DNA of 64,000 nt from Desulfatiglans anilini DSM 4660. Lineage in GTDB: Bacteria > Desulfobacterota > DSM-4660 > Desulfatiglandales > Desulfatiglandaceae. Shown here piece by piece: positions 8,541 to 24,395 of the stretch (the stretch's first letter is position 1; every line of letters begins with the position of its first letter). The stretch is taken from contig NZ_AULM01000019.1 of assembly GCF_000422285.1 (NCBI RefSeq), forward strand, positions 1-64,000, written 5' to 3'. The notes beneath the pieces were generated by a model, which was given only the letters and a program-made list of their open reading frames with translations, ran no database searches and was not told where the DNA came from. Both the position numbers and the translations under genes were made by a program.

Positions 8541-9887
8541 TCACTCGGGGCGTTTCAGGCCGTAGCGCTTGATCATCTTGTGCAGGGTGACGCGGTTGAT
8601 CCCGAGGGCCTGCGCGGCGTGGGAGATGTTCCAGTCCTCCTCTTGGAGGATCTCCTCGACATGCCGCTTTTCCATCTCGCGGAGGTCCCTGGGGCGGTCC
8701 GGGCGCAAGCGGGCTCCGCCGAGGAAGGCAAAATCCTGCGCGTCCAGGGTGCGCGATTTCGAGAGCACGACGGCCCGCTCGATGGCGTTTTCGAGCTCCC
8801 GGACGTTGCCGGGCCAGGGGTACTGCTTCAAACACTCGAGGGCCTCGTTCGTCACGTGGTCCACCTGCTTGGTGGTCTCGTGGCTGTACTTGCGCAGGAA
8901 GTGGCGGATGAGGAGGGGGATGTCGTCCCTGCGCTTGCGGAGCGGCGGGATCTCGAGGCGGATCACGTTGATGCGGTAGAAGAAATCCTCCCGGAAGCGA
9001 CCCTCGGCCACCTCCTTTTCGAGGTCGCGGAGGGTCGAGGAGATCAGGCGGAAATCGACGTCGATCGGGTGCCGCTCACCGATCCGGAGGATCTTCTTCT
9101 CCTCGAGGACCCGCAGCAGGTCCACCTGCATCTTGGCGCTGATCTCGCCGATCTCATCGAGGAAGAGGGTCCCGCCCGAGATGACTTCGAGGAAGCCCTT
9201 GCGGTTCTTGTCCGCGCCGGTGAAGGCGCCCTTCTGATGCCCGAAGAGCTCGCTTTCGAGGAGGCTTTCCGGCATCGCCCCGCAGTTGATGGCGATGAAG
9301 GGGCTGTTGGCCCGGTGGCTCTTGGCGTGGATGGCCTTGGCCACGAGTTCCTTCCCCGTGCCGGTCTCCCCCGTGATGAGGACGGAGGAATCGCTCTGGG
9401 CCACCTCGGGGATGAGATCGAAGATGACCTGCATGGCTTCGGACTGCCCGATGATGTTGTCGAAGCGGGTCTTCTCGGCCAGGAGTCCCTTGACGTAGCG
9501 GTACTTCCCGAGAAGCTCCCGCTGGCCGGCGATCTTCTCGAGGACAAGGGTCATCTGATCGGGGCGGAAGGGCTTGAGGAGGTAGTCGCTCGCCCCCATC
9601 TTCATGGCATCCACCGCCGAGGCGATCGAACCGTAGGCGGTGATGATCACGACCGAGGTGTCCGGATACTCCTGCTTGACACGCTCGAGCAGTTCGAGGC
9701 CGCTCATCTTGGGCATCTTGATGTCGACGAAGAGGACGTCGAAGGGGACCTTCTCGAGCTTTTCGAGGGCCTCGAAACCCGAGGCGGCGGTCTCGACCAC
9801 GTGGCTGAACTTCTTGAACCACTGGTAGAGGGACTCCCGGACGATCTGTTCGTCGTCGACCACCATGATCTTCAGCTTTTCCTGCAT
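8541..9887 (-). CDS. Sigma-54-dependent response regulator of the Hdr locus
   Basis: 448 residues, full-length NtrC type. The receiver has MVVDDEQ, phospho-acceptor Asp in FVDIKMPKMSG and the conserved Lys in LLKPF. The AAA+ domain has GETGTGKE, GAFTGADKNRKG and GGTLFLDEIG, with an arginine-rich sensor region (PPLRKRRDDIPLL). The C-terminal Fis-type HTH is NISHAAQALGINRVTLHKMI. It starts one base after the stop of the histidine kinase gene, so the two form a pair. The cluster begins with a sigma-54-type promoter near 21,170, so this protein probably activates its own operon, responding to the kinase. Confidence 0.93.
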   Translation of the reverse strand: MQEKLKIMVVDDEQIVRESLYQWFKKFSHVVETAASGFEALEKLEKVPFDVLFVDIKMPKMSGLELLERVKQEYPDTSVVIITAYGSIASAVDAMKMGASDYLLKPFRPDQMTLVLEKIAGQRELLGKYRYVKGLLAEKTRFDNIIGQSEAMQVIFDLIPEVAQSDSSVLITGETGTGKELVAKAIHAKSHRANSPFIAINCGAMPESLLESELFGHQKGAFTGADKNRKGFLEVISGGTLFLDEIGEISAKMQVDLLRVLEEKKILRIGERHPIDVDFRLISSTLRDLEKEVAEGRFREDFFYRINVIRLEIPPLRKRRDDIPLLIRHFLRKYSHETTKQVDHVTNEALECLKQYPWPGNVRELENAIERAVVLSKSRTLDAQDFAFLGGARLRPDRPRDLREMEKRHVEEILQEEDWNISHAAQALGINRVTLHKMIKRYGLKRPE

Positions 9888-9888
9888 G

Positions 9889-11451
9889 TCACTCCCCCTC
9901 TTCCGGGTTCAGGACGGGAAAGCTCAATGTGACGCGGGTCCCGCGGCCCTCATCGCTCTCGACCCCGATCCGCCCGTCATGCCCCTTGACGACGCCAAAG
10001 ACGATCGACAGCCCGAGACCGGTCCCTTTCCCCTCCGGCTTGGTGGTGAAAAACGGGTCGAAGATCTTGGAGAGGGTCTCCTTCGCGATGCCGCAGCCGG
10101 TGTCCTCCACGCTCACCTCGGCCCAGTCGCGGCCCTCCTCGGCGGCCGCCCGCGACCGGATGGCGACCGTCCCTCCTTCGGGGGTCGCCTCGATGGCGTT
10201 GAAGATCACGTTCAGAAAGCACTGCTGAAGCTGGTTCGGATCGCCGCGGATGAAGAGCGGCCGGCCGGACAGGGAGAGGTCGAGCGTCAGGTCCTGGAGC
10301 TGCATGTGGTGCCTCGTCAACGTGATGACGGACTGGAGGGTCTCGTTGATGTCCACCTCCTTCCGCTCCATCGAGGACTCCCGGGCGAACGACAGGAGCC
10401 CGGATACGATCCGTCCGCAGCGCTCGAGTTCGCTGCACATGAGCTCGAGGTACTGCTTGAACTGCTCCAGATCGCCCTGTTCGGGGAGGGCCTTCTCCTC
10501 GAGGATGGTGCGCATCAGGTGCCCGAAGGTGAGCATTCCCTGGATGGGGTTGTTGATCTCGTGGGCGCAGCTCGCCGAAAGCTTGCCGAGGCTCAGGATC
10601 CGATCCTCCTGGACGAGCTTGCCGAGGTTCGTCTTCAACTCCTCGAGGCGCATCTCCCAGCGCGACGGGAGTTCCTGGGTGATGTCGCGGCGGATCTCGA
10701 TCACCCGCACGACCTTCCCCGCCTCGTCCTTGACCGGGTAGGTCTCGAGGGTGGCGTAGGCGCTGCGCCCGTCCGCGTCGATCCGTTCGTGGATCACGTG
10801 CGCGCGCTCGCCGGTGCGCATCGTCTCGAGCATCGGGCAGGGCATCTCCGGCTGCCACTCCGAGCAAGGCGAGTTGAACCCGTAGATCGTCTCGTAGCAG
10901 CGCTTCCCGACCGCCTCCTTCAAGGACCGGCCGACCGCCTGCAGATAGGCCTGATTGGCGTCGAGGATCGTGAAATCCGGGTCGAGCAGGATGATCGCCT
11001 CGTGGGTCTGGTGGAAGAGGAGGTCGGCCATGCTTTTTTCGAGGAGCACCTGCCGGTCGGCGTCCTGGCAAAGGGTTTCGCCGGAAAGGAACCGCTCCTG
11101 CAGGAAGCGGAAGAGGTCGCGGTCGACCACCCACACGCCCTGCGGACGCCGCCGCACAAGGTCCACAAAGACCTGCGGGTCGCGCGTGAGGTCGAGGATC
11201 CCGTCGAGGTCCGGCGCAGCGAGGACGGAGGCGTAGTCCTCGGCCGTCGGGATGCCCATCTCGGCGGCCAGCCGCATGCCCTCGGCGGAGGGGTCGGGGT
11301 CGCAGACGGCGCGGATCTCCACCTTCACCCGCGAGATGGCCGGCTCCCGCACGGCTTCGAGAAGGGAGCGACAGGTCCGTCCGCCGCCCACAACGGCGAG
11401 GCGGAGGACGGATCGGGATGGACCGGTGGATCGTGCGGCGGGCGCTTTCAT
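9889..11451 (-). CDS. Sensor histidine kinase with N-terminal Rossmann-like and PAS domains
   Basis: 520 residues from the ATG at 11451; an in-frame start at 11556 would add 35 unlikely residues. The N-terminal ~115 residues form a Rossmann-like unit: LRLAVVGGGRTCRSLLEAV, then VKVEIRAVCDPDP and DGILDLTRDPQVFVDLV, as in NAD-dependent dehydrogenases. A PAS domain follows (HEAIILLDPDFTILDANQAYL) with Cys residues in CSEWQPEMPCPM. The catalytic core has the H-box SCAHEINNPIQG, N-box QQCFLNVIFNAIEAT, and G-boxes VEDTGCGIA and GKGTGLGLSI. There is no membrane segment, so it is a cytoplasmic sensor. The combination suggests sensing of a dinucleotide or redox state. It is directly upstream of its regulator. 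Confidence 0.9.
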   Translation of the reverse strand: MKAPAARSTGPSRSVLRLAVVGGGRTCRSLLEAVREPAISRVKVEIRAVCDPDPSAEGMRLAAEMGIPTAEDYASVLAAPDLDGILDLTRDPQVFVDLVRRRPQGVWVVDRDLFRFLQERFLSGETLCQDADRQVLLEKSMADLLFHQTHEAIILLDPDFTILDANQAYLQAVGRSLKEAVGKRCYETIYGFNSPCSEWQPEMPCPMLETMRTGERAHVIHERIDADGRSAYATLETYPVKDEAGKVVRVIEIRRDITQELPSRWEMRLEELKTNLGKLVQEDRILSLGKLSASCAHEINNPIQGMLTFGHLMRTILEEKALPEQGDLEQFKQYLELMCSELERCGRIVSGLLSFARESSMERKEVDINETLQSVITLTRHHMQLQDLTLDLSLSGRPLFIRGDPNQLQQCFLNVIFNAIEATPEGGTVAIRSRAAAEEGRDWAEVSVEDTGCGIAKETLSKIFDPFFTTKPEGKGTGLGLSIVFGVVKGHDGRIGVESDEGRGTRVTLSFPVLNPEEGE

Positions 11452-11719: not shown

Positions 11720-14700
11720 TCAGATCTGGTCGATCATCGCCATGATCTGGGCGTCATCGAACCCTTTCAGGCGGATGGCGCCGCTCCGGCAGGAGGAGAC
11801 GCAGAGCCCGCAGCCCTTGCAAAGGGCCGGGTTCACCTCCGCCGGACCCTTTTCGGAGAAATGGGGCGCATTGAACGGGCAGACCGTCACGCACACCCCG
11901 CACTGGCTGCACAGGCCGGTTGCCACCTCGGCGACGGTGCCGCTCACCGAGACCTTGGCCGCCGCGAGGTAGCCGGTCGCGCGCGATGCGGCCGCCAGGG
12001 CCTGCGAGATGCTCTCGTCGAGCGTTTTGGGGTAGTGGGCCAGGCCGCAGAGGAAGACCCCCTCCGTCGAGAAGTCGACGGGCCGCAGCTTCGCGTGGGC
12101 CTCGATGAAGAAGCCGTCGCTGCTCGTCGGGATCTTGAAGAACTGCGCCAGGGCCGTGCCGTCCGGCGGGACGATCGCCGTCGCGAGGACGAGGAGGTCC
12201 GAGCGCAGCTGCAGCGGGCGCTGCAGGACCGGGTCCGTCACCGTGATGTCCACCCCCTCGGGCGTGGTGCCCACCCGGGGCTTGTCGTCCGGCTCGTAGC
12301 GGATGAAGACCACGCCCGCCTCCCGCGCCTGGTGGTAGAGCTCCTCCCGCTCCCCGTAGGTCCGCAGATCGCGGTACAGGACCGTGACGGCCATGCCGGG
12401 GTTCAGCCGCTTCAGCTCGAGCGCGCTCACCATCGAGTGGGTGCAGCAGACGCGGCTGCAGTAGGGCCGCTCGGGCTCGCGCGAGCCGACGCACTGGATG
12501 AAGACCGCCGAGCCGATCTGCGCGAGGGACGGGTCGCGGTCGAGGAAGCGCCGGTCGAGCTCGAGGTGGGTCAGGATCCGCGGGTCCGTGCCGTAGGCGT
12601 ATTCCTGCGGGCGGTGCTCGACCCCGCCGGTGGCGATGACCGCGACCCCATGGCGGATCTCCACCGGGCCGGCGCCGTTGCCGTCGATCCGGGAGACGAA
12701 GTTCCCGACGAAGCCGTCCACCCCGGTCAGCTCCGCCCCGAGGTGGAGATGGATGTGCGGGTGCCCTTCCACTTCCACGACCAGGCCCTTCAGGTAGGAC
12801 TGGATGTCCTCCCCCTTCCAGGTGCGCGAGAGGCCGAGTGCCTGGCCGCCGAGGCGCGGTGAGCGTTCGACGAGGTGGACCTCGTAGCCCTGGTCCGCCA
12901 TGTTCTTCGCGGCGACCATGCCCGCCACCCCGCCCCCGACAACGAGGGCCGACGGTTCGACGCCGAGCTGCTCCTCGCGGAGGGATTCGAGGAGGCCGGC
13001 CTTCGCCACCGCCATGCGGACGAGGTCCTTGGCCTTTTCGGTCGCGGCGCGCGGGTCGTTGCTGTGGACCCAGCTGTCCTGGTTCCGGATGTTGGCCATC
13101 TCGAAGAGGTACTTGTTGAGGCCCGCGTTCTGGAGCGTCTCCTGGAAGAGCGGCTCGTGGGTCTTGGGCGTGCAGGCGGCCACCACCACGCGGTTGATCC
13201 CCTGCTCCCGGATCACCTCGGCCATCTTGACCTGGGTGTCCTGCGAACAGGTGTAGAGGTTGTCCTCCGCGTAGACCACGTAGGGGAGCGTTTTGGCGTA
13301 CTCCCGGACGGAGGGGACGTCCACCACGCCGCCGATGTTGATCCCGCACTGGCAGACGAAAACGCCGATGCGCGGAGGCTCGCCGACGACCGGGCGCTCG
13401 GCCGGGAGGACCTTCTCCTGCGTGCAGCTCCAGCGGGCGCCGCACAGGGAGCTGCCGGCGGCCGCAGCGGCGGCCGAGGCCTCGGTGACCGACTGCGGGA
13501 TGTCCTTGGGGCCCTGGAGCGCACCGCAGACGTAGACGCCGGGGACGGAGGTCGCCACGGGGGCGAAGCTCGTCGTGGCGGCGAAGCGGTTGGGGCCGAG
13601 CTCGACGCCGAGGCGCTCGGCGAGCTGCACCGCCGCCTCGGGGACCTGGAACCCGGTCGAGAGGACCACCAGGTCGAAGACCTCGCTTTCGAGGTTTCCG
13701 GCCTCGTCCGCATAGCGGATCACGAGGTCGCCGTTGCCCGCCGGCTCGACGCTGTGGACGCGGGAGCGGATGAAGCGGACGCCGTGCTCATCGCGCGCGC
13801 GGTCGAAGTACTCCTCGAACTCCTTCCCATGCGTGCGCATGTCCATGTAGAAGATCGCCGTGTCGAGCGTGCCGTGGGCGTGCTGCTTGGCGATGACCGC
13901 CTCCTTGATGGCATACATGCAGCAGACCGAGGAGCAGTAAGGCTTCCCGCCGTTGTGGCTGCGGGACCCCACGCACTGGAGCCAGGCGATCTTGCGCGGC
14001 TCCTCGCGGTCGTAGGGGCGCATCAGGTGCCCGCTGAAAGGCCCCGAGGCGCTCAGGATGCGCTCGAACTCGATGCTCGTGATGATGTTGGGGGACTCCC
14101 CGTAGCTGTAAGGCTTCAGGTCCGAGGGGTCCATGACCTCGCTGCCCGTCGCGAGGACGACGGCGCCGATCGTGACCTCGCTGTGGCGCGGCTGGTCGTC
14201 GTACTGGACGGCGTCGGCGAGGCAGACCTTCTGGCACATCCCGCAGCCGATGCAGAGCTCGCGGTCGATGATGTAGGCCAGGGGGACCGCCTGCGCGTAC
14301 TGGATGTAGGTGGCCGTCCGGCGGCCGAGGCCGCAGTCGAACTCGTTTACGGCCGTCACAGGGCAGACGGCGGCGCACTGCCCGCAGCCCGTGCACTTCG
14401 CGGGGTCGATGAAACGGGGGTTGATCTTCAGAGTGGCCCGGAAACGACCCGGTTCCCCTTCCAGGCTCTCGACTTCCGTGTTCGTCACCAGATGGATATT
14501 CAGATGCCGGCCGACCTCGACCAGTTTGGGTGAGATGATTCACATCGCACAGTCGTTGGTCGGGAAGGTCTTGTCCAGCTGGGCCATCATCCCGCCGATG
14601 CTCGGCGCGCGATCGACCAGGTGGACATAGTACCCGGCGTTCGCGAGATCCAGGGCCGCCTGCATGCCGGCAATACCGGCGCCGACGACCATCACCGAAC

Positions 14701-14731
14701 CTTCAACTCCGCCTTGATTCCCTGGAAGCAT
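11720..14731 (-). CDS. hdrA: Selenocysteine-containing HdrA-like protein (second copy of the locus)
   Basis: A 1003-residue HdrA-type flavin/iron-sulfur protein if TGA at 14540-14542 is read as selenocysteine (residue 64). The ATG at 14731 has GAGGAA upstream. Order: FAD-binding [45 protein letters not shown], where relatives have Cys or Sec; two ferredoxin motifs (CTGCGQCAAVC, CIGCGMCQKVC, about 112-165). An HdrA core follows with CQCGINIGGVVDV and a second FAD site, [20 protein letters not shown] (about 595). It ends with two [4Fe-4S] motifs, CSQCGVCVTVC and CKGCGLCVSSC (about 937-980). HdrA bifurcates electrons in heterodisulfide reductases; here no HdrB or HdrC is adjacent. A SECIS-like hairpin follows the TGA. 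Confidence 0.88.
14507..14524 (-). promoter_or_regulatory. SECIS-like hairpin of hdrA (second copy)
   Basis: Begins 16 bases after the TGA. CUGGUC pairs with GGCCGG (two G-U pairs) around the loop GAGGUC. Bacterial SECIS elements place such a stem just after the UGA with a G near the start of the loop. The same 18 bases occur at the same offset in the other hdrA of this locus. Confidence 0.7.
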
Positions 14732-14767: not shown

Positions 14768-15000
14768 GTCGCCGCGAACCTGAGGGGTGTTTTCGTCGCA
14801 CCCCGCCAGATGGGCGGCGTGGGTTCTTTGCTTCATCCTGCGCTTCAGGCAGTCGCCGCGAAACTTGGGACTCGTTTCGTCGCACCCCACTGGGTAGGCG
14901 GCGTGGGTCCTCTGTCGATTCCCGCGCTTCAGGCAGTCGCCGCGAACCGGGGGGTCGTTCCGTCGTACCCCGCAAGGTGAGCGGCGTGGGTCCTTTCGAG
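14768..15000. repeat. 84-bp tandem repeat derived from the mvhD 3' end (about 2.8 units)
   Basis: Units starting GTCGCCGCG at 14768, 14852 and 14936 share a period of 84 bases and the block GGCGGCGTGGGTCC. The rightmost unit is the 3' end of mvhD, encoding THAAHLAGYDGTTPRFAATA before its TGA. The other two lie between mvhD and the next hdrA and would encode similar THAAHLAGCDENTPQVRG and THAAYPVGCDETSPKFRG peptides. They are downstream copies of a gene end. Confidence 0.8.
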
Positions 15001-15684
15001 ATCATTCAGCCTGACGGAAGCCGCGTGGATCGGCAGCCCGGTTTCGAAGGCGATGTCGCGGAGGCTCATGGGGCCTTCGGCGAGCGCCACCAGGATGAGC
15101 GCCTTCTGGAACTCCTCCTCGATGGTCTGCCGGAGCATCCGTTCGTAGGCGGCCTCGTCGTAGTGCTCGCCGTAGACATTGCCCCGCTCCGTGATCTGGA
15201 TCTCCATCCCCGTGAGCCAGCGCAGGCGCGGGGTCGAAAGCGCGCGGAGCGCCGCGTCGAGCGTGCCGGCTGCCGCCTCCGTGTCGAGGGGGCCGATGGC
15301 GCCGAGCGTCTCGGTATACTCCCGGACGTACTGGGCGAAGACCTGCCCCTCCGCCGCACTCACCCAGCGGAGGCGGACCCGGTCCTTTCCGAGCCCCGCC
15401 GTCTCGAGGAGGGTCTCGACCGTCTTCATCTCGCATGCCGCGTAGACATTACCAGACTGGTAATGGCATTCCCCGATGTGTCAGCCGGAGACGAAGACGC
15501 CGTCGAAGCCGCTCCTGAGCCCCTTGATGACGTGGATGGGGTCCACCCGGCCGGAGCACATCACGCGGACGGTCCGGAGGGAGGACGGGTACTGGATCCG
15601 CGAGACCCCGGCGAGGTCCGCCCCGGCATAGGCGCACCAGTTGCAGAGAAACGCGAGGATTTTCGGTTCGAAGGTCTGTGGCAT
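14929..15684 (-). CDS. mvhD: Selenocysteine-containing MvhD-type iron-sulfur subunit
   Basis: 251 residues if TGA at 15481-15483 is selenocysteine (residue 68). The ATG at 15684 is chosen because AGGAGGAG precedes it. The N-terminus EPKILAFLCNWCAYAGADLAGVSR...VRVMCSGRVDPIHVIKGLRSGFDGVFVSG-U-HIGECHYQSGN matches the MvhD [2Fe-2S] protein that links HdrA to an electron donor. Sec replaces the Cys of the usual GCHPGDCHY motif. The C-terminal part has a winged-helix-like segment (ALAEGPMSLRDIAFETGLP). Reading only the standard code gives two fragments, 15481-15684 and 14929-15429. A strong SECIS-like hairpin follows the TGA. The gene starts 20 bases after the hdrA stop. Confidence 0.88.
15447..15465 (-). 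promoter_or_regulatory. SECIS-like hairpin of mvhD
   Basis: CATTACC-AGUCU-GGTAATG: a perfect 7-bp stem with a five-base loop containing GU, starting 16 bases after the TGA at 15481-15483. This offset is the same as in both hdrA genes, although the sequence is unrelated. Confidence 0.78.
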
Positions 15685-15703: not shown

Positions 15704-18700
15704 TCAGGCATCCGTCCTGAGGAAGGTCTTGACGAGCCGGTCCCAGCCGAGCTCGGGGAAGTGGCCGAAGAGGTCCTTCACCGGCTCGCCGCCGGTCGCG
15801 GCCAGTCGTTCGTATTCCGGGCCCAAGAGTTCGAGCAGTTTCTTCACCTCGCCGTCCAGCCATCGGCGGCTCTCCTGCCCTTTGCGGACCCGCGTCGGGT
15901 CGATGTAAGGGGTCAACGGGTCGAGGACCAGGAGCCAGCCCTTGTCGTACGGGTCCTCCGCGACGAGTTCAGGGTGTTCGAGGGCCTCGCGGTTCACCAT
16001 GAAGACCTTGCCGGTCGCCGGCCCCAGGAAGTCCGCGCGGTTCCCGTTGCGCCGGATACGCCAAGCGCGGCGGTCCAGGCGGAGCGTGGATCCTTCGGGC
16101 GGCAGTTCGATCCGTTGGGCCGGACCGAGGACCTTGCCGGCGAAGTCGTCGATCCCGACCCGCAGACGTCCGCCCTTTTCGATGCGCATCCAGGTGTGGC
16201 CCACGTGGTAATAGTAGTCGTCGGCGACCCGGTAGCCGGAGACGGCGTAGACGGGGCGGGTGGCGGCCTTCAGGCGGCGCTTGGCCTCGAGGGCGCTGTC
16301 GCCCCCGGCCTCGACCGCGGCGATGATCTGCCGGTCGCGGAAATGGACCATGTCGATGGCCTTCTGGGGGCAGCCGGCCGCGCAGACGCCGCAGCCCTTG
16401 CAGAGGGCCGACAGGTTCCGCGCCCGGTAGCCCTTGCCGGTGACCTTTTCGAGTTCGATGGCGCCGAAGGGGCAGGCCGAGGCGCAGTAGCCGCAGCCGA
16501 CGCACTTGTCGCGGTCGACGGCGGAAACGAGCGGCTCGACCTCGACCTCCCGTTTGACCAGGAGGGTGGCCGCCCGAGAGGCGGCGGCGCGGGCCTGTGC
16601 GATGCTCTCTTCGATGGGCTTCGGATAGTGGGCGACGCCGCAGGCGAAGAGGCCGTCGGAGGAAAACTCGACCGGGCGGAGCTTCGCATGGGCCTCGAGG
16701 AAGAACCCGTCGTCGTTCAGGGGGACCTTGTAGAGCTGGGAGAGCCGGTCCTGCCCGGACGGGATGATGGCCGTGAAAAGATTGAGGTAGTCGACCGTGA
16801 GCGACAGGGGCGCGCCGAGGACGTGGTCGCGGACGCGGATCCGGAGCCGGTCGCCGTCCACGGCGACCTCGGGTTTTGCGTCGAGGTCGTAGCGGATGAA
16901 GACGACGCCCGCCTCGCGGGCCTTCCGGTAGAGTTCCTCACGCTGGCCGTAGGTCCGCATGTCGCGGTAGAGGATGTAGACGTCGAGCTCGGGGCGCCGC
17001 TCCTTCAGTTCGATCGCCTGCTGGACGGAGGCCGTGCAGCAGACCTTGGAGCAGTAGGGCCGGCCGCCCTCGCGCGACCCGACGCACTGGATGAAGGCCA
17101 CCGCTTCGGCCTCGGCCAGGGCGGCGGGCTCCGCGTCGAAGCGCGCCATCAAGTCGTGCCAGCAGGTGACCCGGTCGCTCTGCCCGTAGGCGTATTCATC
17201 GGGCCGGAGGTAGTCCCCGCCGGTGGCGAAGACGGCCGCGCCGTGCTGGATTTCCTGCGGGAGGCCGCCGGCGGCCGCGACCGTCGTGACGAAGTTTCCG
17301 ACAAAGCCCGAGGCGGACTGGATCTCCGTGTCGAGGAGGACCTCGATCCGCGGGTGGGATTCGACGCGCTCGATCAGCCGGGCGGTGTAGGCGGGGATGT
17401 CCTCGCCCTTCCATGTCCGGCCGAGCCGGAGGCCGTAGCCGCCGAGGCGGGGGGCCCGCTCGACGAGATGGACCATGAAGCCCTGGTCGGCCAGATCGAG
17501 GGCGGCATTCATGCCCGCCACCCCGCCGCCGACGACGAGCGCCGACTGCTGCATGGCGAGCCGGATCCGTTCGATCGGCTCGAGGAGCGCGACCTTCGAG
17601 ACCGCCATCCGGACGAGGTCCCTCGCCTTGTCGGTCGCCGCCTCGGGCTCCTTCTGGTGCACCCAGGCGTCCTGGTCGCGGATGTTGGCGAACTCGAAGA
17701 GGTACGGGTTCAGGCCGGCCTCCCGGATGGTCTCCCGGAAGAGCGGCTCGTGCGTCCGCGGGGTGCAGGCGGCCACCACGACCCGGTTGAGCCGGTGTTC
17801 GGCGATGGTTTCGCGGATGATCTTCTGGGTGTCCTCGCTGCAGGTGAAGAGGTTTTCGCCCGCGTAGACGACGTTCGGCAGGCCGGCGGCGTAGTCGCGG
17901 ACCGCTGGGACATCGACGACGCTGCCGATGTTGATCCCGCAGTGGCAGACGAAGACGCCGATCCGCGGGGCTTCGCCGGCGACGGGGGTCTCGGGCGGAT
18001 AGGTCTTTTCGTGGATGAGGGTGTTCCGCGAGGCGGCCAGGAGGGCGGCGGCTGCGGAGGCGGCGGCCGAGGCGCTGACGACGGACTGCGGGATGTCGGC
18101 CGGGCCGCCGAGTGCGCCGCACGCGAAGACCCCGGGCCGGCTCGTCTCCACAGGGCCAAGGCAACCGGTCTGGACGAAGCCGTCCGCGTCGAGGGCCACG
18201 CCGAGCCGCTCGGCCATGGCGCGGGACTCGGCGCCGATCTCGAGGCCGACCGAGAGGACGACGAGGTCGAAGCGCTCGCTCAGGCGGGCGCCGTTCTCAT
18301 CGACATAGGTCAGGACGAGGTCGTCGGAGCCGGGTCCGGCCGTTTCGACCGTGTGGATCCGGGAGCGGATGAAGCGGACGCCGGCCTCGCTGCGCGCCCG
18401 TTCGTAATAGCGGTCGAAGTCCTTGCCGTGGGTGCGCATGTCCATGAAGAAGATCGCGGTGTCGAGGGCGCCGCCCGCATGCTCCTGGGCGATGACGGCC
18501 TCCTTGACGGCGTACATGCAGCAAACGCCCGAACAGTAGGGATGCGCCCCTTTGGTCGTCTCGCGGGAGCCGACGCACTGCAGCCAGGCGATCTTCTCCG
18601 GGGTCTTCCCGTCGGAGGGACGGGTGAGGTGCCCGCGGAAGGGCCCGGTGGCGCTCAGGATCCGTTCGAAGGCCATGCTGGTGATGACGTTCGGGAAGCG

Positions 18701-19342
18701 GCCGTAGCCGTAATCCTTGTAGAGGACGGGGTCCAGGGCCTGGGAGCCGGCCGCGAGGAGCACCGCGCCGACATCGACCCGGTGGGTCTTGGGCGTCTGC
18801 TCGAAGTCGATCGCCCCGGCGGGGCAGAACTTCTCGCAGGCGCGGCAGGTCCCCTTCTCGAAATAGATGCAGTGGTCCCTGTCGATCGCATACTTGAGGG
18901 GGACCGCCTGGGGGTATTGGACATAGATCGCCTTGCGTTTGGCGAGGCCCTCGTTGTAAGGGTCATCCACCTTGCGGGGGCACTTCTCGGCGCAGACGCC
19001 GCAGGCGATGCACTTCTCGGTGTCGACGTAGCGGGGGGCTTCCTGGAGAACCGCCGTAAAATGTCCCGGTTCCCCTTCGAGCGCCTCGACTTCCGTCAGG
19101 GTATGCAACGCGATGTTCAGATGCCGGCCGACCTCGACCAGTTTGGGTGAGAGAATTCACATCGCGCAGTCGTTGGTCGGGAAGGTCTTGTCGAGGGCGC
19201 TCATGAGCCCCCCGATCGCAGGCCCCTTCTCGACCAGGTGAACGAAGTATCCGGAGTCTGCCAGGTCGAGGGAGGCCTGGATACCGGCGATCCCCCCGCC
19301 CACCACCATCACGGATCCTATAGAAACGGGATTTTCACTCAT
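15704..19342 (-). CDS. hdrA: Selenocysteine-containing HdrA-like protein fused to a GcvH-like domain
   Basis: 1212 residues if TGA at 19157-19159 is selenocysteine (residue 62). The ATG at 19342 has AAGGAG upstream. Order: FAD site [45 protein letters not shown]; ferredoxin motifs [11 protein letters not shown] and [16 protein letters not shown] (about 111-172). Next come [13 protein letters not shown] and a second FAD site, [19 protein letters not shown] (about 600), then [11 protein letters not shown] and [11 protein letters not shown] (about 945-990). The C-terminal ~180 residues resemble glycine-cleavage H protein ([13 protein letters not shown]...[13 protein letters not shown]...[11 protein letters not shown]), but the lipoyl-lysine position appears to be Gly/Asn. 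The tail [18 protein letters not shown] is shared with the upstream Cys-repeat protein. Predicted cytoplasmic flavin-based electron transfer. Confidence 0.88.
19124..19141 (-). promoter_or_regulatory. SECIS-like hairpin of hdrA (first copy)
   Basis: Begins 16 bases after the TGA at 19157-19159. CUGGUC/GGCCGG stem with the loop GAGGUC, identical to the hairpin of the second hdrA. The nucleotide identity around it exceeds what the protein sequence requires. Confidence 0.7.
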
Positions 19343-19703: not shown

Positions 19704-21032
19704 TCACCCGGCGTGCGCGTCCGGACCGGCGGTCCGCAGAAAGGTGCGCACCAGGGGATCCCAGCCAAGCTCGGGGAAATGGCCGTAGATGTCGGAAACG
19801 ACCTCGCCGCCGGTGGCCGAGAGTTTTTCGTAGCCCGGACCCAGCATCGACACCAGTTCACGGGCGTCGTGCTCTATCCAGAGCGCGGCCTCCGCACCCG
19901 AGTAGAGGCTCTGGGCCTCATGCTTCAGATCGTAGGGCTCCATCTGGAAGAGCCAGCCATCGCCGTAGGGGTCGTCGGAGACGGTCGCAGGCGCTTCGAC
20001 CACCTTCGGATTCACCGCCAGGATCCTGCCCGTCAACGGGCAGAGGACCGGGGCGCGGTGGCCGCCGTGGGACAGCACCCAGCCGGCGCGGGTCCGTTCG
20101 AGATCGGAGCCCGGTGCCGGGATCTCCACGCCGTCGATCGGCCCGAGGAGCTTGCCGACGAAGCCGTCCACGCCGACCCGCACGCAGCCGCCGTGGATGA
20201 CATGCACCCAGGTATGGCCGAAGTGGTAGTAGTAGCCGTCGGCGACCGGGTAGCCGGTGACATTCCGGCTGGCCGGGCGCTCGATGGGGCGCGGCTTGCA
20301 GGTTTTTTCACCGGCGATGGCGCGGTGCGTCGGGCACTCGTGGCAGGCGTAGTTGGAGGCGCACAGCGGCGGGGCGTCCGTGCGGCCGATCAGGGCATAG
20401 ATGCAGGGCCGGATGACCGGCTCGACGGCGGCGCCGATGGCGGTCAGGACGGCGTCCCCGGCCTTCGGCGGACCTTCGAGCATGGCCGCGCGCATGCTCC
20501 GGTCGAACTCGCAGTGGTAGCAGTCGTAGTCGTTGTCGCAGAGGTGCATGCCGATGATGCCGGCCTTCATCCAGACGCATTCGTGGTTGGGAAAGGGAAA
20601 GCCGAGCGGCCGCTCTTCCGCCTGGGCCGCACCGGACTGCTGTTCATCGCGGCGAGCGGCGATGGACTGCCGGAGCGGTTCGTAGCCGAGCGCGAGTTCG
20701 ACCGGGCAGCTGTCACAGTCATAGTCGCGCAGACAGGCCTCGGGTGCGCCGCTCCGTTGATCGAGGAAATACACGCAGGGTTTTTGCCGTCCGAGATACC
20801 GGCTGCGCATGGCGGCCGGCCAGCCAAGCGGCCGTGCGCCGGCGCTGCGCGGTTTCTGGGCGTCCATGGCGGCCCGCATGGCCCTGTCGAAAGGACAGTT
20901 GAAGCAATCGTAGCCGCGGTCGCAGGTGCGGAAGTTGACCACCCCGGCCTTCATCCAGACGCATTGGTCCGCCAGCACCTTGAACCCTGGAAGATCTCCG
21001 CCTTCTCTGTGGTTTGTCATATTCTCGTTCAT
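19704..21032 (-). CDS. Four-fold Cys-repeat protein with C-terminal GcvH-like domain
   Basis: 442 residues; the ATG at 21032 has AAGGAGG at ideal spacing. The N-terminal ~250 residues carry four repeats of C-x12/13-C-x5-C-x2-C. Repeats 1 and 3 read CVWMKAG...YDCxxC; repeats 2 and 4 read CVYFL/CIYAL...YxCxxC. The total of 16 spaced Cys suggests iron-sulfur or zinc sites. The C-terminal half is GcvH-like (YYYHFGHTWVHVIHGGCVRVGVDGFVGKLLGP...DDPYGDGWLF) without an evident lipoyl lysine. It ends [20 protein letters not shown], like the HdrA-GcvH fusion downstream. It is the first gene after a sigma-54-type promoter. It is probably an electron-transfer partner of the Hdr proteins; I know no named function. 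Confidence 0.8.
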   Translation of the reverse strand: MNENMTNHREGGDLPGFKVLADQCVWMKAGVVNFRTCDRGYDCFNCPFDRAMRAAMDAQKPRSAGARPLGWPAAMRSRYLGRQKPCVYFLDQRSGAPEACLRDYDCDSCPVELALGYEPLRQSIAARRDEQQSGAAQAEERPLGFPFPNHECVWMKAGIIGMHLCDNDYDCYHCEFDRSMRAAMLEGPPKAGDAVLTAIGAAVEPVIRPCIYALIGRTDAPPLCASNYACHECPTHRAIAGEKTCKPRPIERPASRNVTGYPVADGYYYHFGHTWVHVIHGGCVRVGVDGFVGKLLGPIDGVEIPAPGSDLERTRAGWVLSHGGHRAPVLCPLTGRILAVNPKVVEAPATVSDDPYGDGWLFQMEPYDLKHEAQSLYSGAEAALWIEHDARELVSMLGPGYEKLSATGGEVVSDIYGHFPELGWDPLVRTFLRTAGPDAHAG

Positions 21033-21164: not shown

Positions 21165-21180
21165 TGCAAGGATGGGGCCA
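21165..21180 (-). promoter_or_regulatory. Sigma-54-type promoter of the Hdr locus
   Basis: On the minus strand TGGCCCCATCCTTGCA has the invariant GG and GC exactly ten bases apart and a perfect TTGCA -12 element. It is about 120 bases upstream of the Cys-repeat gene. The locus encodes an NtrC-type activator, which such promoters need. Confidence 0.7.
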
Positions 21181-21267: not shown

Positions 21268-21282
21268 GTAGCTTTTAGCTAC
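21268..21282. promoter_or_regulatory. Palindrome, possible activator site 1
   Basis: GTAGCT-TTT-AGCTAC, a perfect inverted repeat about 90 bases upstream of the sigma-54-type promoter. That is a usual distance for an NtrC-type enhancer site. Confidence 0.45.
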
Positions 21283-21357: not shown

Positions 21358-21374
21358 GCTACACCCGGTGTAGC
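21358..21374. promoter_or_regulatory. Palindrome, possible activator site 2
   Basis: GCTACACC-C-GGTGTAGC, a perfect 8-bp inverted repeat sharing GCTACAC with site 1, about 180 bases upstream of the sigma-54-type promoter. On the plus strand it is followed by a run of seven T, so a terminator role is an alternative; no plus-strand gene precedes it. Confidence 0.45.
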
Positions 21375-23567: not shown

Positions 23568-23957
23568 TCAAGATTGGGTTTCTTCCTGATGCAATTCCTC
23601 CATGCGTTTCGTGATCGCGTCCAGTTCGGCCTTGACCATGCGCGCCTGCTCCTTGAGCATGGCGACCTCATCCTGGCTGCTCATCGGGTAAGAGGCGCCG
23701 TACGGAGGAGCATAGCGTCCGTAAGGCGCCGGGCCATAGGCCCCGCCGTAGACCCCGGCCCGGCCGAAGCCGCGGCCGTAGCCCCGGCCCCAGCCGGCGC
23801 CGCCGCCCGCGCGATAGCCCCGCCCACGCCCGTAGCCGTAACCGGCACCATAGCCCGGACCATAACCGTAGCCGGCCCCGGCCGGGTTGCAGTAGCCGTG
23901 TCCACCGCCCGTCATGGGGCCTTCGCCCCAGGGCCCTGTTCCGTCGAATCCTGGCAT
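23568..23957 (-). CDS. Gly/Tyr-rich DUF5320-type protein
   Basis: 129 residues; AGGAGG precedes the ATG. It starts MPGFDGTGPWGEGPMTGGGHGYCNP, the hallmark of DUF5320 proteins. A long low-complexity Gly-Tyr-Arg tract follows, and then a C-terminal coiled coil (SSQDEVAMLKEQARMVKAELDAITKRMEELHQEE). The function is unknown. In anaerobes the family often lies near proteins for iron-molybdenum cofactor or metal handling. It is the second gene of a two-gene unit with the similar protein at 24042. Confidence 0.8.
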   Translation of the reverse strand: MPGFDGTGPWGEGPMTGGGHGYCNPAGAGYGYGPGYGAGYGYGRGRGYRAGGGAGWGRGYGRGFGRAGVYGGAYGPAPYGRYAPPYGASYPMSSQDEVAMLKEQARMVKAELDAITKRMEELHQEETQS

Positions 23958-24041
23958 AATTTATGCCTCCTTTCTGAATCGTCGAACATCTCAGGTTCGG
24001 GATGAGTCTTCACCGAAGTTCCTGCAGCGCGCAGCCTGCGC

Positions 24042-24305
24042 TCACCATCCCAGGCAGCGAAAGCCACGGCGTCCGCCGAAGCCGCGTCCGCGGCCGCGGG
24101 CAAAGCCGAAGGCGCGGCCGAACCAGCCGCCCCGGGCAGCGGGGACAAAGGCTGGGGCGGCTCCGTAGCCATAGCCACGGGCGCCGTACGTCGCCGGCAA
24201 GCCACCGTAAGGCCTGTTCGCCAAAGCAGAAGGGTTGCAGTTTCCGCGACCCCATCCCGTCATGGGCCCCATTCCTGCGGGACCCGTTCCATCGAAAGCC
24301 GGCAT
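24042..24305 (-). CDS. Small DUF5320-type protein
   Basis: 87 residues. The ATG at 24305 is chosen because AAGGAGG lies nine bases upstream; one at 24314 would be too close. It starts MPAFDGTGPAGMGPMTGWGRGNCNP, like its neighbour, then runs in Gly/Arg/Phe-rich low complexity to GFRCLGW. It lacks the coiled-coil end. Probably a paralogue transcribed from the sigma-70-type promoter just upstream. Confidence 0.78.
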   Translation of the reverse strand: MPAFDGTGPAGMGPMTGWGRGNCNPSALANRPYGGLPATYGARGYGYGAAPAFVPAARGGWFGRAFGFARGRGRGFGGRRGFRCLGW

Positions 24306-24395
24306 GCCATCCACCTCCTTTCATGCTGCGTCCGAATGCGGGGAAATGCCTTGCAGACCATTCCCCGTGCGAACGATTTATGAGCTTACGCCCAT

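Follow-up and report, generated by a model that had tools for sequence, protein, structure and literature searches.

A four-cysteine repeat domain joined to a lipoate-free H-protein-like domain, encoded beside HdrA and MvhD genes in Desulfatiglans anilini

Introduction

H-protein-like proteins and HdrA-type proteins are encoded together in the sulfur-oxidising Hdr-like system, in which LbpA carriers work alongside Hdr-like systems and have a strictly conserved lipoyl lysine (PMC6067878). In sulfate reducers, HdrA and MvhD occur as selenoproteins (PMC2702500, PMC5109826), and the passages searched in these papers make no mention of an H-like domain fused to HdrA or of a Cys-module protein encoded upstream. 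The biological role of archaemetzincin (M54), a frequent neighbour of the genes considered here, is still poorly known (PMC3427221).

Here we analyse a 64,000-nucleotide stretch of the Desulfatiglans anilini DSM 4660 genome (contig NZ_AULM01000019.1, positions 1 to 64,000; the window), which contains a minus-strand gene (19704..21032) for a 442-amino-acid protein with four-Cys repeats ahead of an H-like domain. Like LbpA, this H-protein-like protein is encoded together with HdrA-type proteins, but the adjoining HdrA is part of a putative HdrA/MvhD operon. In contrast to LbpA, its family does not keep the lipoyl lysine, and its partners are HdrA and MvhD of the sulfate-reducer type and a two-component system. 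Our literature search located no paper that describes the four-Cys domain or an HdrA with an H-like domain attached.

Results

Four-Cys repeats of the window protein

A first-pass annotation of the window had proposed a four-fold C-x12/13-C-x5-C-x2-C repeat at 20280-21032, a stretch that corresponds to codons 1-251 of the 442-codon minus-strand open reading frame. The protein contains exactly four matches to this pattern in the order A-B-A-B: repeat 1 (type A, CVWMKAGVVNFRTCDRGYDCFNC, starting at residue 24, 20895..20963), repeat 2 (type B, CVYFLDQRSGAPEACLRDYDCDSC, residue 86, 20706..20777), repeat 3 (type A, CVWMKAGIIGMHLCDNDYDCYHC, residue 152, 20511..20579) and repeat 4 (type B, CIYALIGRTDAPPLCASNYACHEC, residue 210, 20334..20405), all on the minus strand and together holding 16 Cys residues. 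Among 100,000 residue shuffles of the same protein, 211 gave any match and none gave more than two, which establishes the repeat as real. Repeats 1 and 3, of the WMKAG type, are identical at 21 of 37 positions and repeats 2 and 4 at 13 of 38, with 9-12 identities over about 40 positions between types A and B. Neither B repeat of the window protein retains the conserved FDQ motif, and their sites may therefore be shifting in function.

The annotation's remark that no named domain has this pattern is borne out by Pfam, where nothing valid covers the repeats (only zf-CHY, at 15.5 bits against a curated cut-off of 31.3) and no Fe-S family matches them. No NCBIfam model covers this region either, and a profile search of the PDB with the A-B module returned a best hit at chance level (E 0.55). 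Searches with a predicted model of the A-B module by Foldseek and VIA-align found no fold match, a result that says little because the model is too weak (pLDDT 67.5). Structure prediction with metal sites had been suggested as a check on the repeats; the full-length AlphaFold model is confident over the H-like part (pLDDT ~95-97) but weak over the repeats (~45-80), and it lends the putative metal sites no structural support.

Distribution and duplication of the A-B unit

The four-Cys sites A and B are themselves homologues by hhalign comparison (probability 97.8%, E 1.2e-12). An alignment of 81 A-B modules from many genera has nine invariant columns, namely all eight Cys and one Trp, and an Asp and a Tyr are nearly invariant; the invariance of the eight Cys marks the pattern as conserved, as opposed to an accidental string of Cys residues. 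By these comparisons and the database searches above, the four-Cys repeat is a domain without prior description, built of two homologous sites.

Matches were found in 36 of 61 related genomes, and a sample of Desulfobacterota contained the domain, which has no name, in 59 of 297 genomes. A scan of a genome collection matched 396 encoding stretches; the best 80 of these 396 have deltaproteobacterial or Desulfobacterota-type titles, with a few labelled only Proteobacteria. Among the matches listed from a plasmid collection, all were to the H-like part and none to the Cys module. The two-repeat form is carried by the cultured Desulfospira joergensenii, Desulfosarcina widdelii and Desulfonema magnum.

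Two repeats (A-B) are present in 110 of 116 parsed proteins and four in the remaining 6 entries, which represent three genomes (G000, G001 and G018), each entered twice; among the genomes searched, the four-repeat form was confined to these three. In a module tree built on few columns and moderately resolved, the first modules of two distinct four-repeat proteins pair with each other (SH-aLRT 99), as do their second modules (83), and all four modules form one clade (91). This pairing within a single clade indicates that one A-B unit was duplicated once, in agreement with the duplication proposed in the first-pass annotation. The usual unit is thus, on the module counts and the tree, a single A-B module, and the four-repeat form is its doubled version.

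The H-like domain and its tail

The predicted fusion to a GcvH-like domain was recovered by Pfam (PF01597, E 1.9e-17) at residues 268-383 (19884..20231, minus strand). This part of the protein shares both sequence and fold with GcvH, its best Foldseek matches being H-proteins with the barrel-sandwich fold (1onl, E 2.8e-11, TM 0.92 by target). It differs from GcvH in the missing lipoyl lysine, in the N-terminal Cys modules and in an additional conserved C-terminal tail (19737..19883, minus strand), which is common to the relatives and to the HdrA fusion described below. Scores fall far under the curated NCBIfam GcvH cut-offs (66.1 bits against 117 and 48.3 against 115.85).

The position of the lipoyl lysine, set by alignment with the E. 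coli reference sequence, is occupied by Gly in the window protein and likewise in the HdrA-fused domain. Across 68 relatives it is G in 21, D in 16, E in 13, N in 7, K in 4 and other residues in 7, so that Lys is absent from 64. A role as lipoyl carrier was therefore rejected for the window protein. Neither gcvT nor gcvP was among the neighbour genes read. Proteins combining A-B with an H-like domain (A-B-H) are liable to be annotated as glycine-cleavage components through the H-like part, though they appear unable to carry lipoate.

HdrA, MvhD and two-component genes in the window

The Cys-module gene heads a minus-strand run that continues with an HdrA carrying a C-terminal H-like domain and tail (HdrA-H, 15704..19342), an MvhD/FlpD-like subunit (14929..15684; PF02662, E 1.6e-48), a second HdrA (11720..14731), a histidine kinase (9889..11451) and a sigma-54-activating response regulator (8541..9887). 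We infer a single transcript from the shared strand and order of these genes, with intergenic gaps of up to ~360 bp. The H-like domain and tail of the HdrA encoded next to the Cys-module gene are 48% identical to those of the Cys-module protein.

As in the HdrA and MvhD genes of sulfate reducers (PMC2702500, PMC5109826), HdrA-H (19157-19159, following NDCAM), MvhD (15481-15483) and the second HdrA (14540-14542) each contain an in-frame UGA. These codons probably specify selenocysteine, since the frames stay open through them, homology continues on both sides and selenoprotein HdrA and MvhD are known in sulfate reducers. Under standard gene calling the three UGAs break the open reading frames. 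Two further features were noted in this region: 2.7 copies of an 84-bp unit in the stretch between MvhD and the second HdrA (14768-14994), and ~120 extra C-terminal residues in the MvhD-like protein (14929-15684, minus strand) with weak similarity to helix-turn-helix domains (MarR/ArsR-like).

HdrA-H fusions were found in four genomes (G000, G001, G018 and G017). The first three are exactly those with a four-repeat protein, whose gene precedes HdrA-H in each. The fusion in G017 (L209 1325-4732) belongs to a genome without a Cys-module match, and none lies beside it on its short contig.

The kinase has PAS, HisKA and HATPase domains and is of the soluble type, with no strong hydrophobic segment; its N-terminus is Rossmann-like by motif reading (GGGRxC), and its PAS domain has a conserved Cys. 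These features make a cytoplasmic redox or nucleotide signal plausible.

The usual neighbourhood and other architectures

The A-B-H gene of relatives typically lies opposite an archaemetzincin gene (PF07998; NF033823 above cut-off), with a sigma-54 regulator and a kinase nearby. Within 6.5 kb, the regulator was found in 72, archaemetzincin in 69 and the kinase in 69 of the 82 loci with more than 3 kb on both sides, counts slightly inflated by a few contigs entered twice. The same three genes also lie beside divergent forms with A only. The D. anilini genome has a second locus on another contig (C9; L112 11952-17992) with two tandem A-B-H genes, archaemetzincin, a sigma-54 regulator and a kinase, which by its gene content is a locus of standard form. 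No archaemetzincin gene lies within 6.5 kb of the A-B-A-B gene in the window. The regulator encoded in the window shares 70-73% identity with its counterparts at A-B-H loci of several other genomes and only 52% with that of the C9 locus, and it groups with the former. In our reading, the A-B-A-B locus is of the standard type, with HdrA/MvhD genes in the place that archaemetzincin usually takes.

The Cys module is, judging from its fusions, portable between protein architectures. Type A alone is joined to an H-like domain in L163-L169. A receiver domain is fused to A-B in two proteins (L174 5700-6500 and L175 9429-10205) whose genes adjoin those of a sigma-54 regulator and a kinase, with HdrA and MvhD genes just upstream in L174. 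In three further proteins a HoxU/NuoG-like 2Fe-2S/4Fe-4S part is combined with B and an H-like domain (L170 4809-6092, L171 5527-6807 and L172 4781-6088). The neighbours of these three genes are NuoE- and NuoF-like in L170, which also encodes a small A-B protein, and NuoF-like and indolepyruvate-oxidoreductase-like in L171 and L172; except where Pfam is cited, neighbours in L170-L172 and L174 were named by reading. Pfam and NCBIfam confirm the receiver, Fer2/Fer4/HoxU-like and GCV_H parts of the variant proteins.

Promoter and palindromes

Upstream of the Cys-module gene lies a sigma-54 promoter-like box, TGGCCCCATCCTTGCA (21165..21180, minus strand), the sole exact TGGCMC-N5-TTGCA in the 64-kb window, where 0.13 are expected. 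Such a box was found upstream of 41 of 68 A-B-H genes, compared with 0.0 in shuffled sequences. About 195 bp further upstream is the palindrome GCTACACCGGGTGTAGC (21358..21374, minus strand), a proposed response-regulator site and the genome's sole exact GCTACA-N5-TGTAGC; an identical copy precedes the A-B-H gene of Desulfospira joergensenii (L049). A second palindrome, GTAGCTAAAAGCTAC (21268..21282, minus strand), may be another site.

Judged against single-base shuffles, GCTACA-N5-TGTAGC with at most one mismatch occurs upstream of 9 of the 68 genes (0.05 expected) and with two mismatches upstream of 16 (0.8 expected). Where box and palindrome are both present, they are often ~194-196 or 215-219 bp apart. 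With up to two mismatches, the palindrome accompanies 11 of the 31 loci that encode a regulator with an NRVTLH recognition helix and 1 of the 20 loci without it; at this lone exception the helix appears to have been misread. The -24/-12 promoter and upstream palindrome fit a sigma-54 two-component regulon, and the window regulator may bind the window palindrome. Use of the palindrome as a regulon marker was rejected: in the genomes inspected, its further near matches sit in unrelated surroundings, and it was therefore treated as a single-target site.

Discussion

We tentatively favour a role of the window protein as a metal-thiolate adaptor or relay that its lipoate-free barrel docks onto Hdr-type complexes, under the control of a dedicated two-component system. 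Each A or B site could accommodate a single metal ion or a small Fe-S cluster, and duplication of the A-B unit would give the window protein four sites. The H-like barrel would act as a docking platform, as suggested by its fusion, together with the tail, to the HdrA of the adjoining gene and to a HoxU/NuoG-like Fe-S subunit of other bacteria. The protein would thus serve an HdrA/MvhD-type flavin electron-transfer complex in the cytoplasm, by electron transfer or by redox sensing, and the soluble PAS kinase and sigma-54 regulator would turn its gene on through the enhancer palindrome and the promoter. We prefer this reading on account of the covalent union of the barrel with the adjacent HdrA and, elsewhere, with the HoxU-like subunit. 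The invariant Cys residues, the A/B homology, the near-general loss of the lipoyl lysine from an H-protein fold, the position of the four-repeat gene ahead of HdrA-H in three genomes, the redox-type neighbours of the HoxU-like and receiver fusions and the association of box and palindrome with the NRVTLH helix are all consistent with it. On the other side, archaemetzincin is the commonest neighbour and HdrA adjacency a minority arrangement, the weak model leaves the metal sites without structural backing, G017 has an HdrA-H fusion but gave no Cys-module match, and the loss of FDQ may mean that the window B sites are changing function.

An alternative that we consider possible, though on balance doubtful, is a signalling adaptor in which A-B is a redox- or metal-responsive switch reporting to the kinase and regulator, with archaemetzincin as the effector or as a protease degrading the adaptor, and the electron-transfer fusions as later borrowings. 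It follows closely because the kinase, regulator and receiver fusions recur, and the neighbourhood counts, including those genes beside A-only forms, and the confirmed identity of archaemetzincin agree with it. However, it leaves the HdrA and HoxU fusions unexplained, the window locus has no nearby archaemetzincin, and the A-B-H gene is the regulator's apparent target, which suits an output at least equally well. The small, CxxC-rich repeats with their conserved Trp, Asp and Tyr and no Fe-S family match could also be structural, one Zn(II) per repeat supporting an interaction surface in a scaffold without redox chemistry; the repeated association with Fe-S and flavin redox proteins makes this improbable. 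Sixteen Cys residues might suggest a metallothionein-like store of metal or sulfur, or a thiol buffer, but this is very unlikely given that the strict spacing, the conservation of residues other than Cys and the location beside regulators point to defined sites, and that the repeat number is nearly always two. A conventional H-protein or LbpA-type carrier, lipoylated and with a zinc finger added at its N-terminus, would account for the fold, the PF01597 match and the work of LbpA carriers with Hdr-like systems (PMC6067878); it is scarcely credible, since the lipoyl lysine is missing from the window protein as well as from 64 of 68 relatives, and the scores fall far below the GcvH cut-offs.

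Taken further, the adaptor or relay for Hdr-type complexes would represent a novel kind of four-Cys cofactor site that can move among electron-transfer subunits, receivers and an H-like carrier devoid of lipoate, the metal site having taken over from lipoate as the working group. The form with four repeats would then be a four-cofactor relay for the H-fused selenoprotein HdrA, and the locus of A-B-H, archaemetzincin, kinase and regulator an unrecognised redox-homeostasis system of Desulfobacterota, an extension that we regard as speculative and rather unlikely as a whole. The domain is tied to H-like domains on HdrA- and HoxU-like electron carriers, to a dedicated sigma-54 two-component pair and to bacterial archaemetzincins, linkages that make the role of each directly testable.

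Elsewhere in the window, two adjacent small Gly/Tyr-rich open reading frames lie at 23568-24314 on the minus strand; the first matches DUF5320 (PF17253), and the second looks similar by eye.
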